Below the pieces are notes generated by a model. The model was not told the origin of the DNA, did not search any database, and was given only the letters and a program-made list of their open reading frames with translations. From Salinirubellus salinus (GTDB lineage Archaea; Halobacteriota; Halobacteria; Halobacteriales; Haloarculaceae): a DNA stretch of 64,000 nt. This document shows, piece by piece, positions 6,941 to 10,907 of this stretch (within the stretch, counting starts at the first letter, position 1; each line of letters opens with the position of its first letter). Made by a program: the position numbers and the translations under genes. The stretch lies in the NCBI RefSeq assembly GCF_025231485.1, contig NZ_CP104003.1:2170001-2234000 (forward strand), read 5' to 3'.

Positions 6941-7507
6941 ATGCGTGACCGCGACGACGACGGCGAGACCGATCCGCTCGCGTGGACGACGACCGACTCC
7001 GAGACGGACTACACCTGTCCGGGGTTCGACGTGCGCCGCGACGAGGTCCGGTTCCCCGACGGGACGACGGGGGAGTTCCACAGCGTCACCGACGACCCCT
7101 CGGTCGTGGTCCTCCCGTTCACCACGGACGGCGACGTGGTCGTCATCGAGGAGTGGCGACAGGCCGTCCGCCGGGTCAACCTCGGCCTCCCGGCCGGCGG
7201 CCTCGAAGGCGACGAGGACCCGGCCGCGGCCGTCCACCGCGAACTCGCCGAGGAGACGGGCTACGAGGCGGGCGCGGTGGAGGAACTCGCGGTCTACGAG
7301 CCGGCGAACGGCCTGTTCGACGTCACCTTCCACTACTTCGTCGCGCACGGCTGCGAGCCGACGGCCGAACAGGACCTCGACCACAACGAGTCCATCCGGG
7401 TCGACACCCGGACGTTCACCGACCTGCGCGACCGAGCCCTCGCGGGAGACCTGCGCGACGGCCGCTCGGCGCTGGCGGTGCTCCAGTACGCGCTGCAGGC
7501 GGAGTGA
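6941..7507 (+). CDS. Nudix hydrolase, ADP-ribose pyrophosphatase-like
   Basis: The 188-residue protein contains a complete Nudix box beginning at the GGLEG of residues 87-90 and ending in the catalytic helix RELAEETGY (100-108), which binds the divalent metal. The preceding FTTDGDVVVIEEWRQAVRRVNLGLPAGG is the arrangement seen in ADP-ribose and nucleoside-diphosphate-sugar pyrophosphatases, so a housekeeping role in clearing ADP-ribose-type metabolites is inferred. It is a single gene, starting 48 bases after the DUF502 gene and ending before a convergent gene. The exact substrate is not determinable. Confidence 0.82.
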   Translation: MRDRDDDGETDPLAWTTTDSETDYTCPGFDVRRDEVRFPDGTTGEFHSVTDDPSVVVLPFTTDGDVVVIEEWRQAVRRVNLGLPAGGLEGDEDPAAAVHRELAEETGYEAGAVEELAVYEPANGLFDVTFHYFVAHGCEPTAEQDLDHNESIRVDTRTFTDLRDRALAGDLRDGRSALAVLQYALQAE

Positions 7508-7517
7508 CGGAGCGCCG

Positions 7518-8135
7518 CTACGGCGAGAGCTCCGGCGGTGGGCCGGCGCCCCCGAGGCTCATCTGACGAGTCCGGTAACTGTGGACGAGCGCCGAGACCA
7601 CCAGAGACACCGCGAGTCCCAGGGCCACCGCGAGACCAGACACCCCGCCGACCACGCCGATGGCGACGGCGGCCGTGACCACCACCCCGAGGAGCCCGAG
7701 CATCAGGTAGTAGGTGCTCCACGGGATGTCGTCACTGTGGACCACCTCGAGGTACACCTGCAGGTCCTCCAGTTTCGAGGTGGGGGCGACCGTGCCGCGG
7801 TCGCGGTCGTACTCGACGACGGCAGCCCGGTCCATCTTGGGGAGGTGCTGTTGCTGGAGGGCGTTGTACACCCGGTGGCGCTCGGTCGGCGTGACCTCGT
7901 CCAGCGGTTCGTGGTTCTCCCAGGCGGCCACCTGTCGAGAGAGCTCACGGAGCGTCACCGGCTGGCCACGCTGCTGGAGGTAGTGGACGACCGCGCGCCG
8001 CCGCTGGTTGTCGAGCAGCTCGAACACCGTGTTCGTCGACGGCGGGCCGCTGCGCCGCTCGTCGGACACCCGGCTGTCGAGTGTCACCCCACCGTCCGAC
8101 GACAGCTCACCCCGTCCACGGTCTCGTCGAGTCAT
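7518..8135 (-). CDS. Winged-helix membrane protein, DUF7344-like
   Basis: The 205-residue protein has a haloarchaeal winged-helix domain at about residues 33-115 (ELLDNQRRRAVVHYL, then VTLRELSRQVAAWE and a wing ending VVEYDRDRGTVAP). Two C-terminal membrane helices follow (about 138-158 and 162-185). This is the layout of DUF7344-type proteins, likely membrane-tethered transcription regulators. It is transcribed divergently from the exported-protein cluster that follows, making it a candidate local regulator. A TATA box sits about 43 bases before its ATG. Ligand and targets are unknown. Confidence 0.7.
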   Translation of the reverse strand: MTRRDRGRGELSSDGGVTLDSRVSDERRSGPPSTNTVFELLDNQRRRAVVHYLQQRGQPVTLRELSRQVAAWENHEPLDEVTPTERHRVYNALQQQHLPKMDRAAVVEYDRDRGTVAPTSKLEDLQVYLEVVHSDDIPWSTYYLMLGLLGVVVTAAVAIGVVGGVSGLAVALGLAVSLVVSALVHSYRTRQMSLGGAGPPPELSP

Positions 8136-8173
8136 ATCCGAAATTCGATCACTCTGATTTCTGGGACGCTCAC

Positions 8174-8182
8174 GTATATATC
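8174..8182 (-). promoter_or_regulatory. TATA box of the winged-helix gene
   Basis: A GATATATAC element on the minus strand lies about 43 bases before the ATG at 8135, implying a leader of some 16 bases. It is one of the most AT-rich sites in the window. The rest of the 273-base gap to 8409 shows a further AT-rich spot, TATGAATATT near 8338-8347, which probably serves the plus-strand Tat cluster. Confidence 0.6.
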
Positions 8183-8408
8183 TGACCGAGAGTCCTGTCC
8201 CGTGGAACCGAATCGAGCGGTGATAACCACCCGTTAAGCCGTTCTGGCAGTTGTTTCACTCTTTTCTGGACCATCCTGACCGACTTGTGGGCACCCCTGA
8301 GCGAGAGAGGCAGCCTGCCGAGAAAGTTCAGGTAACTTATGAATATTCCTCCGTCTCCCGTAGGACCGACTGTAGTCGGGCGGCGACCGCCCGACACGGA
8401 CAAGGACC

Positions 8409-9365
8409 ATGACCCAAGAATCCACCACTCGACTCGACCGCCGTACCGTGCTGAAGACAGTCGGCCTGCTCGCCGTCGCGGGCGCCGGCACCGGTCTCGG
8501 CGTGAGTGCCTTCGCGGGCCGCGCGAGCGCCGGCATCCCCGAGTTCACGATCGACGGGGACACAGTGACGACCGACGACGGGACGCTGACCGACATCAAG
8601 CTCCGTGCCAGCGGGACCTGGCAGTTCGACGGCATCGACGGCCCCGTGAGCGGGGTCAGGATCGGGCTGAGCGCCCACCGCCCCGGCTCCGCGCACGCGC
8701 AGGGCTACACCGTCTCGACCCAGCAGATCCCCATCGAGGGCGACCCGGCCGCCGCGTCGGGGACGTTCGACCTCGACTGGGCGTCGCTCCCGTTCGACGG
8801 GTACTACTTCTACGACCTGTCGGACTTCACCGCGGGGACCGACGGGACGTCGAAGACCACGCCCGTCGTCGCCTACCTCTGGATGGAGGTCCACGAGTTC
8901 GGCTGGCAGACGAACTACGCGCTCGACGACCTCGGGGGCCCGGCGATGCCGGGCCACGGTCCAGCGCGTGAGACGCAGTTCAACGTCACCGTGAACAACC
9001 AGGAGGCGACCGGCTCCGTCGCCGGGACCGGCGAGGCAGACGCACAGGGTGTCAACGAGTACCCGCTCGGCGAGGGCGACGTCGGTGAACTGGGCCTCAC
9101 CTGGTCGACCGGCAGCTGCGCGTGGCGGGTCGACAACCGCAACCCGGTCGGGACCGCCCCCATCGCCTTCACCATCCAAGGTGTCGGCGGCGACGGGTCG
9201 GTCGACGGCGTGGCGCCCGCGGGCCACTACGGCTACCCGCTCGCGGACGGGCCGAACGGCCACGACCCGCACGGGACATACGCCGACCTCGACACGCCGA
9301 CAGCGAAGCTCCTCGTCGACGGCCAGCAGGTGGACGTCAAGGCACGTGGAGGGTGCACCCAGTGA
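8409..9365 (+). CDS. Tat-exported protein of unknown function (paralogue 1)
   Basis: No known family was recognised. The N-terminus has a twin-arginine signal (DRRTVLKTVG, then a hydrophobic stretch ending AGRASAG near residue 43), so the 318-residue protein is exported folded. The mature part contains TTDDGT, GTWQFDGIDGP and ASGTFDLDW segments that recur in the next gene, showing gene duplication. The C-terminal third (from about residue 225) is unique to this copy and holds two cysteines, SCAW and GGC near the very end, that could form a disulfide. It leads a three-gene unit of exported or membrane proteins. Confidence 0.7.
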   Translation: MTQESTTRLDRRTVLKTVGLLAVAGAGTGLGVSAFAGRASAGIPEFTIDGDTVTTDDGTLTDIKLRASGTWQFDGIDGPVSGVRIGLSAHRPGSAHAQGYTVSTQQIPIEGDPAAASGTFDLDWASLPFDGYYFYDLSDFTAGTDGTSKTTPVVAYLWMEVHEFGWQTNYALDDLGGPAMPGHGPARETQFNVTVNNQEATGSVAGTGEADAQGVNEYPLGEGDVGELGLTWSTGSCAWRVDNRNPVGTAPIAFTIQGVGGDGSVDGVAPAGHYGYPLADGPNGHDPHGTYADLDTPTAKLLVDGQQVDVKARGGCTQ

Positions 9366-9374
9366 GGTGACATC

Positions 9375-9998
9375 ATGACCGCACGACTCACCCGACGGAC
9401 GGTGCTCGGCGGGCTAGCAGCGACGGGCCTCGCGGCGACGGGCCTCGCCACCCTCCCGGCACCCAGCGCGGGCACGCAGGTGATGTTCGCCGTCGAGGAC
9501 GCCAGCATCACGACCGACGACGGCACCATCGACGGCGTCGCCATCGACGTGGACGGCAGCTGGCAGTTCGACGGCGTCGACACCCCCGGCACGGACGTCC
9601 ACCTCCAGCTGGGGCTGAAAGGCGAGACCGAACCGGAGACCTGGACGTGGGAGACGGTGGCGGTGGATGGCCAGTCCATCACGCCAGCCCACGCCGCCAC
9701 CGGCACGTTCGCGTTCGAGGACGTGGACCTGCTTGCGGAGACGGTCTGGACCGCCGAGGACTTCGCCGCGCCGGCGAACGACTCGGTGAACTCCGGCGAG
9801 GAGGGCCAGACCGAGACGGAGACCACCCTGACGCTCCGCCTGCTCCTGCAGGTCCGTGACGCCGGCGGTGCGCTACTCGTCCAGGACGAGAAGCGCGCGT
9901 CGTTCGACATCACCGTGGTGAACGAACCCAGCAGCGTGGGGAGCGAGGGAGGCGGGACCGTCGAGCTCTCCGGCTCGAACGAGGAGCACACCGAGTGA
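9375..9998 (+). CDS. Tat-exported protein of unknown function (paralogue 2)
   Basis: The 207-residue product starts with a twin-arginine signal (TRRTVLGGLAATGLAATG) and a predicted cleavage near residue 32. The mature domain aligns by eye with the preceding protein: TTDDGTIDGVAI, GSWQFDGVDTP, ATGTFAFEDVDL and a final FDITVVNE strand match in the same order. It lacks the other's C-terminal cysteine-bearing third and ends in a Ser/Gly/Glu-rich tail. The start lies ten bases after the previous stop, so both are probably cotranscribed. Function is unknown; a paired surface or extracellular complex is inferred. Confidence 0.7.
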   Translation: MTARLTRRTVLGGLAATGLAATGLATLPAPSAGTQVMFAVEDASITTDDGTIDGVAIDVDGSWQFDGVDTPGTDVHLQLGLKGETEPETWTWETVAVDGQSITPAHAATGTFAFEDVDLLAETVWTAEDFAAPANDSVNSGEEGQTETETTLTLRLLLQVRDAGGALLVQDEKRASFDITVVNEPSSVGSEGGGTVELSGSNEEHTE

Positions 9999-10059
9999 GG
10001 GACGACGGGCACCCCCGCTCGGATCGAAGTCTGGTGCGTGATGCCCGTGGAGGAACCAC

Positions 10060-10593
10060 ATGAGACTCACCAAGAAACGCGTCCTGCTCGTGCTCCTGTT
10101 ACTGGTGGTGGTGCTGCTCGGCGCGGGGCTGGGCTTCCGGGGCGGCGACGGGCCGGTACCGGAGGAGCCGGGGCCTGCGGAGACGGCGACGCCCGCCGAG
10201 ACACCAACGCCGACGGACACGGCCACGCCACCACCCGGGGTGACGGAACCCCCGACGCCGACGGCCGTGTCGACACCCACGGTCACACCGACGCCGGATG
10301 GGACGACGGCCCCGAATCCGGCGACCGAGACGCCGGACGGCACGACGACCCCGACGGCGACCCCCACGCCGCGTGACGGCCGCGACCCGCCACCCGCGAC
10401 CCCCCGGCCGGGGACCGAGCCGGCCGACCGGGGCCGTGACGGCGGGTCGGGACCCTCCGGCGACTCGGCCACGGCACCGACCGGTGACGTGGACGGAACC
10501 GGCGACGCGCGGGCCGAGGGTGAGGACGAACACCCGGACGACACCTGGGTGGGCGCCGAGCCCGCTCAGCCGAGCAGGAGTCGGAGGTTGTAG
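10060..10593 (+). CDS. Membrane-anchored protein with Thr/Pro-rich stalk
   Basis: The 177-residue protein starts MRLTKKRVLL and has one strong membrane helix (about 7-26). It then consists almost entirely of low-complexity TPTPT-, TETP- and DGT-rich sequence of the kind that is O-glycosylated and spans the S-layer in haloarchaea. There is no folded domain visible. It lies 61 bases downstream of the two Tat proteins, so it may be their membrane anchor or surface stalk. Its last 28 bases overlap the convergent gene. Repetitive sequence makes homology claims unreliable. Confidence 0.6.
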   Translation: MRLTKKRVLLVLLLLVVVLLGAGLGFRGGDGPVPEEPGPAETATPAETPTPTDTATPPPGVTEPPTPTAVSTPTVTPTPDGTTAPNPATETPDGTTTPTATPTPRDGRDPPPATPRPGTEPADRGRDGGSGPSGDSATAPTGDVDGTGDARAEGEDEHPDDTWVGAEPAQPSRSRRL

Positions 10594-10907
10594 ACCGTCG
10601 TGAACGCGCCGACCACCGCCAGCACCACCGGTGGGGCGTAGTACGAGATACGGTCCTCGGTCCCGCGGAGCGCCGCGAGACTGAGGCCGATACAGAAGAG
10701 CAGTACCGCGATCTTCAGTCCAGCGAGCCCCCCGTTCCCGAACGTCTCCACCACCGCACGCACCAGGACGTTCGCCTCGCGCACCGTCGGACTGAACTGG
10801 ACGATAGCGATGGTGGTGACGGTGTCACCGACCCCGTAGGTCGCCGTGGCGATAATCCAGAGCCAGTAGAACTCCTGCTCGCGCAGGCGGGTCCAGCGGG
10901 CGGCCAT
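10566..10907 (-). CDS. Small membrane protein, DUF5658-like
   Basis: The 113-residue product has three to four hydrophobic segments (about 14-34, 58-78, 90-110). The pattern TYGVGDTVTT followed by VREANVLVRAVVE resembles the D..TT...G.EANP signature of DUF5658-type membrane proteins, a family of unknown function. A TATA-like box centred 27 bases before its ATG indicates a leaderless transcript. It is convergent with, and overlaps, the stalk-protein gene by 28 bases. Confidence 0.55.
   Translation of the reverse strand: MAARWTRLREQEFYWLWIIATATYGVGDTVTTIAIVQFSPTVREANVLVRAVVETFGNGGLAGLKIAVLLFCIGLSLAALRGTEDRISYYAPPVVLAVVGAFTTVYNLRLLLG

Follow-up and report, generated by a model that had tools for sequence, protein, structure and literature searches.

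The genes at 7518-10907 of the window, the whole 64,000-nucleotide stretch of Salinirubellus salinus DNA analysed here, appear to encode an undescribed kind of surface fibre or adhesin that is exported through Tat and anchored in the membrane, a reading whose probability we put at roughly one half. We regard it as distinctly probable that the members of the set act together and as somewhat doubtful that they truly polymerise; physical assembly, strand exchange, adhesion and regulation are steps that we infer.

The cluster is arranged around a divergent intergenic region (8136-8408), characterised by its sequence and a repeat search, in which both promoters are presumed to lie. To one side, the minus strand encodes a DUF7344 winged-helix protein (7518-8135; PF24035, 103.1 bits against a cut-off of 27.8) with two C-terminal hydrophobic helices and hardly anything outside them, which agrees with the divergent winged-helix membrane protein described in a sequence-only reading of this DNA. 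To the other side, the plus strand carries gene A (8409-9365; 318 aa), gene B (9375-9998; 207 aa) and a stalk or anchor gene (10060-10593; 177 aa), with gaps of 9 bp between A and B and 61 bp between B and the stalk. A fifth gene, P5 (10566-10907, minus strand), is convergent with the stalk gene, overlaps its end by 28 bp, and encodes a small DUF5658-like membrane protein with 53-58% identity to the P5 proteins of four other clusters; its score against DUF5658 itself (PF18902) is 21.5 bits, below the cut-off of 25.2. P5 occurs in 131 of 391 genomes, often without the subunit family described below, and it is a conserved neighbour at this site with a putative functional link. A perfect 9-bp inverted repeat (8375-8383/8387-8395, GTCGGGCGG/CCGCCCGAC) lies 13 bp upstream of the start codon of gene A and could be a leader hairpin or an operator. 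Upstream of the DUF7344 gene, an imperfect palindrome around a TATATA stretch (8167-8188) is possibly the promoter or operator of that gene.

A and B carry the twin-arginine motifs LDRRTVLKT and LTRRTVLGG, from which Tat export is predicted, the NCBIfam Tat-signal match of B lying below threshold. The blocks TTDDGT, G[ST]WQFDG and A[ST]GTF follow one another in the same order in both proteins, and BLASTP aligns the full-length sequences at 39% over the N-terminal 120 aa (E=1e-12) and the mature parts alone at 35% over 79 aa (E=3e-10). Both are members of a haloarchaeal family of beta-domain proteins that has no name as yet and that we call FAM here; its pattern consists of a Tat signal, [ST]xDxG, [WF]xGxD, FxVTVxN and then a small-residue tail. 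A FAM profile built with the window left out recovered A at E=6e-12 and B at E=5e-8 (2e-16 and 1e-13 after one iteration), with no third open reading frame below E=1 among the 654 in the window; the likeness between A and B is therefore not due to chance, and their description as adjacent Tat-signal paralogues holds. Beyond the Tat signal, neither protein has a match in Pfam, NCBIfam, PHROG or PDB sequences, and the hypothesis that they are enzymes was rejected for lack of any signal in these four collections. As the sequence-only reading had proposed, Pfam and NCBIfam reveal no enzyme domain in A, B or the rest of the cluster.

A single-sequence search of 146 genomes from the taxonomic family of the organism gave FAM matches in 10, its own genome among them. 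Across 391 Halobacteria genomes, a profile search identified strong members in several dozen; the raw profile count of 318 is too high because it includes matches extending hardly beyond the Tat signal. A third, longer FAM paralogue is encoded in the same genome (C1:1131671-1132714; locus L026, 5675-6772, minus strand), solitary and with no stalk or DUF7344 gene nearby. In Haloprofundus marisrubri, one FAM domain (L159, 4471-6081) is apparently interrupted by a YCF48-like propeller region, recognised by a weak PSII_BNR match. The queries tried found no relatives among viral contigs or plasmids, and a mobile or viral origin of the cluster was rejected on this basis.

Gene B encodes a single FAM domain, whereas gene A continues into a separate C-terminal domain (about 9078-9362) containing Cys237 and Cys316, the cysteine-bearing C-terminal third that had been noted in one of the paralogues. 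This A-type domain was found only in Haloprofundus, Halobium and Halogranum, and both cysteines are missing from the homologues there, a pattern consistent with a disulfide and unfavourable to a part in catalysis; a catalytic or metal-binding function for these residues was discarded on the same grounds. The first FAM gene of other clusters also bears an extra C-terminal domain, which differs from cluster to cluster. In a FastTree phylogeny of FAM domains, which has modest support and long branches, the gene-1 copies and gene-2 copies of different genomes form separate clades (support 0.989 and 0.942, respectively), and A and B emerge as sisters (0.855) in the same region of the tree. For the Halobium, Haloprofundus and Halogranum proteins with an A-type C-terminal domain, the FAM domains group in another clade, so these proteins were not accepted as strict orthologues of A and are considered domain-shuffled relatives. 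The separate gene-1 and gene-2 clades, together with the displaced carriers of the A-type domain, suggest a two-gene layout that looks old and whose domains have been shuffled.

AlphaFold models of both proteins, each from a seven-sequence alignment, are all-beta and of low confidence (B: pLDDT 58.6, pTM 0.55; A: pLDDT 58.2, rising to 80-90 in parts of the C-terminal domain). Foldseek searches of these models against the PDB returned nothing at E<=0.001 and only weak matches to Ig-like sandwiches. These, and matches of A to RbmA and transglutaminase that had very low TM-scores, were not used. The models neither favour nor contradict a TasA-like fold.

The order of regulator, one to three FAM genes, stalk and P5 recurs in genomes of three haloarchaeal families, being conserved in G355, G214, G439, G447 and G365 and partly so in G162, G227 and G444. 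In G439, G447 and G365 the arrangement is exactly that of the window: DUF7344, FAM gene 1, FAM gene 2, a transmembrane stalk protein and P5. Halobium salinum (G355) has a DUF7344 gene, one FAM gene with the A-type C-terminal domain, a stalk gene and P5, and in Haloprofundus marisrubri (G214) a pair of FAM genes with a stalk gene is followed by DUF7344, another FAM gene, another stalk gene and P5. In Halogranum rubrum (G444) a FAM gene and a stalk gene are present and the contig ends beyond them. Directly upstream of this FAM gene at the contig end is a transposase-like frame (L079, 10317-10766), recognised only by eye; its presence could account for the apparent lack of a DUF7344 gene at this contig end.

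The stalk protein has one N-terminal helix (about 10081-10140), a Thr/Pro-rich middle and an acidic outer end, the final stretch of about 55 residues being rich in Asp, Gly and Arg; the earlier description of a single helix with a Thr/Pro-rich outer part is accurate for the helix and the middle, and its claim that the outer part is all Thr/Pro-rich was slightly too strong. The N-terminal segment (TKR, helix, LGAGFG) is common to anchors of different genomes. When a profile of this segment was trained on ten anchors from other genomes, the window being excluded, and run against 14,093 open reading frames, the window stalk was the best match outside the training loci (E=3.5e-5). The stalk is a genuine, homologous part of the set. 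Stalk genes also lie directly 3' of FAM genes, with gaps of 28-42 bp and no DUF7344 in the sequence examined, in G026, G038, G275, G376 and Halogranum. The anchors of Haloprofundus marisrubri (G214), G162 and G227 combine a transmembrane helix and a Thr/Pro-rich stalk with a complete C-terminal FAM domain, which hhalign aligns with the FAM family at a probability of 93 (E=2.7e-7). The sequence-only proposal of a surface system made of two paralogues, an anchor and a regulator, which took no account of P5, is thus well supported by the recurring gene order, the homologous anchors and the FAM-bearing anchors, and A, B and the stalk may form a physical complex.

A further tie between subunit and anchor was detected in the window itself. 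Nineteen residues of A just past its FAM domain (TGSVAGTGEADAQGVNEYP; 9009-9065) align ungapped with TGDVDGTGDARAEGEDEHP (10480-10536) near the outer end of the stalk, with a score of 59 (p=0.0005, the lowest value that 2000 shuffles allow); the tails of other loci score at most 34 against the window stalk, and the tail of B does not match it (p=0.17 by shuffles). The segment that best matches the cognate tail ends 0-4 residues from the C terminus of the stalk in Halobium, Haloprofundus, Halogranum, G026, G275 and G376. Among these six loci only Halobium and G275 are individually significant, most other loci being weak singly, and the combined value over nine loci, window included, is p=1.6e-4, with related loci not independent. 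All p values of this locus-by-locus test carry a mild second-look bias because it was run after a test with a tail motif. That motif, derived from other species, reached significance in Haloprofundus, Halobium, Halogranum and G365 and was weak in G447; the window stalk gave no match to it (p=0.09). Two readings of the shared tail remain: the stalk may derive from an ancestral anchor that had an entire FAM domain, or the tail may be a retained docking strand.

In other haloarchaea, the position between DUF7344 and P5 is occupied by a different class of subunit. G408 and G213 encode proteins there with SipW-type signals (TIGR04088; PF12389 camelysin, TasA superfamily), together with a signal peptidase that matches TIGR02228 in G408 and is recognised by appearance in G213, and the operons of G296, G217, G448 and G284 are similar to these by sequence. 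Their anchors consist of a transmembrane helix, a stalk, a FAM domain and a TasA-like domain, except that the FAM part is not clear in G284. In a class-wide search, such anchors, or often just their TasA-like part, were found in 51 of 391 genomes, and in 22 of these 51 P5 faces the match convergently across a distance of 8-126 bp, as measured from the ends of the profile matches. Operons of this SipW/TasA type between DUF7344 and P5, mostly with anchors that are FAM/TasA-like fusions, are seen at loci L135, L136, L142, L145, L121 and L122, the last also encoding a SipW-signal protein with a VWA domain (7201-9039). The TasA-like protein of G213 and gene 1 of Haloprofundus align over 65 C-terminal residues (E=3e-6) of acidic character, which is only suggestive of a common domain.

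The cluster can be compared with three known types of surface structure. In Bacillus subtilis, TapA has an N-terminal donor strand in common with TasA and starts the filament (PMC10151520). In the TasA/TapA/SipW system as in the cluster, the genes for exported subunits share an operon with one for a dedicated anchor or initiator, and in both the initiator and the subunit hold a common sequence, which is N-terminal in TapA and TasA but on the C-terminal side here. The haloarchaeal SipW-type relatives are alike in site, type of regulator, P5 neighbour and homologous anchors. A and B, however, have Tat signals instead, with no SipW-type signal (TIGR04088); A, B and the stalk gave no match to the camelysin/TasA domain (PF12389) at E values up to 1, and none of the five proteins of 7518-10907 matched a signal peptidase. 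The Tat-fimbriae, tafi (TafA/C/E; Galeva et al., 2025, as cited in PMC12687288), are reported to be Tat-exported haloarchaeal surface components. RR motifs, from which Tat export is predicted, are present in A and B, and taf-like genes likewise adjoin DUF7344 genes: in the present genome, three of the eight other DUF7344 genes flank Taf-like exported genes, the Taf matches falling below curated cut-offs. A and B have no match to TafA, TafC or TafE (models NF052520-NF052522, up to E=1). Since the signal, domain and peptidase tests failed on the one hand and the Taf model tests on the other, the cluster appears to be neither a TasA/SipW member nor a tafi operon, although its layout is most like these two. 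Finally, archaeal surface fibres such as the thread Saci_0406 and the bundling pili are built from beta-rich subunits joined by donor-strand complementation (PMC9715654). Threads are Sec-exported, in contrast to A and B with their Tat signals and lack of any sequence match to a PDB chain, and donor-strand assembly of A and B may be envisaged by analogy.

These comparisons suggest a possible mode of action. A and B, both beta-domain subunits, would leave the cell folded via Tat, B serving as the plain subunit and A, with its extra outer domain, as an adhesive or tip subunit. The stalk would hold one helix in the membrane, span the S-layer zone with its Thr/Pro-rich spacer, and present near its outer end a copy of the subunit tail, on which the first subunit would dock much as TapA starts TasA filaments by a common donor strand, with the end reversed. 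The membrane-tethered DUF7344 protein would control the divergent operon. The surface-fibre interpretation draws on the conserved order, the FAM-domain anchors, the FAM/TasA-like anchor fusions at the same site and the match between the tail of A and the stalk, as well as on the TapA/TasA donor-strand precedent and the three other DUF7344 genes beside tafi-like genes. Against it stand the weak models with no significant fold match, the unmatched tail of B, the tail signal that is weak singly in most other loci, the absence of the motif from the window stalk, the many FAM genes without the regulator and the FAM genes adjoining giant sugar-active proteins. A more specific proposal, which we offer tentatively, is that the cluster represents a third class of haloarchaeal surface fibre, in which FAM subunits exchange their C-terminal tail, are nucleated and anchored by the stalk, and can be swapped at one site with a SipW/TasA-type fibre via a common anchor family.

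Alternatively, A and B could capture a surface ligand, such as a polysaccharide, while held by the stalk and without polymerising, with the outer domain of A binding the ligand. Five near-tandem FAM genes in G064 (L029, L030; G064:C1:1104000-1143999) and two or more in G225 (L081; C45) mostly adjoin a gene for a giant exported protein (about 1600-1950 aa), and the one such protein of G064 that was scanned contains 3-keto-disaccharide hydrolase, sugar dehydrogenase, malectin, laminin-G and plastocyanin domains. FAM genes directly 5' of giant exported proteins, some of them sugar-active, suggest other uses of the family, and the variation of the extra domain of gene 1 between clusters also counts in favour of ligand capture. 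The window cluster, however, has no enzyme or transporter gene, a TasA-type fibre operon takes the same site elsewhere, and the stalk contains a copy of a subunit tail; we consider this alternative unlikely.

The locus might instead be no more than a favoured site for surface-protein genes, with A and B acting as independent secreted or matrix proteins that belong to no dedicated system. Among 46 FAM loci, DUF7344 lies within 3.5 kb in 10 and is accompanied by P5 in 7; the remaining 36 have no DUF7344 within that distance. Moreover, G192 and G165 keep the site, with P5, phosphatase-like and racemase-like neighbours, where no FAM gene was recognised. With 36 of 46 loci lacking the regulator and the family widespread, the FAM domain is not exclusive to the set: the dedicated complex previously proposed gains from recurrence of the set in three families and loses its exclusiveness, and the set reads as one version of a more general fibre-type locus, not as something new that stands by itself. 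The separate cross-genome clades of gene-1 and gene-2 copies, the stalk genes directly 3' of FAM genes in five further loci with no DUF7344 nearby, and the FAM-domain anchors and shared tails that tie the products together nevertheless speak against a merely favoured site, which we judge slightly less likely still than ligand capture.

The surface-fibre interpretation assigns the DUF7344 protein a role as local regulator of the divergent operon, which is probable. The gene at 7518-8135 is one of nine DUF7344 genes in this genome, and no paper on DUF7344 was found in the literature searched. The genes L177 5000-5539, L180 5180-5863 and L181 4833-5426 are DUF7344 genes beside Taf-like genes, with a signal-peptidase-like gene close by in two of these loci. 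DUF7344 genes thus recur in pairing with operons for exported surface structures that belong to different protein families, in cases that are not fully independent as they include duplicated clusters. The same pairing, and the C-terminal membrane helices, could point to contact sensing, with the exported proteins and stalk signalling through the DUF7344 protein to change expression of other genes, but this seems very improbable given that DUF7344 shows no extracellular sensor domain and the cluster holds no partner kinase or protease.

Many secreted proteins of haloarchaea are exported already folded via Tat, which raises the question of how fibres form from folded subunits. The surface-fibre interpretation would make the present cluster a compact and testable case, of three to five genes, for building surface fibres in this way. 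It would also supply a common annotation frame (DUF7344, exported beta subunits, stalk anchor and DUF5658-like neighbour) for many unnamed haloarchaeal surface operons, one that also covers the SipW/TasA-like operons with the same anchor.
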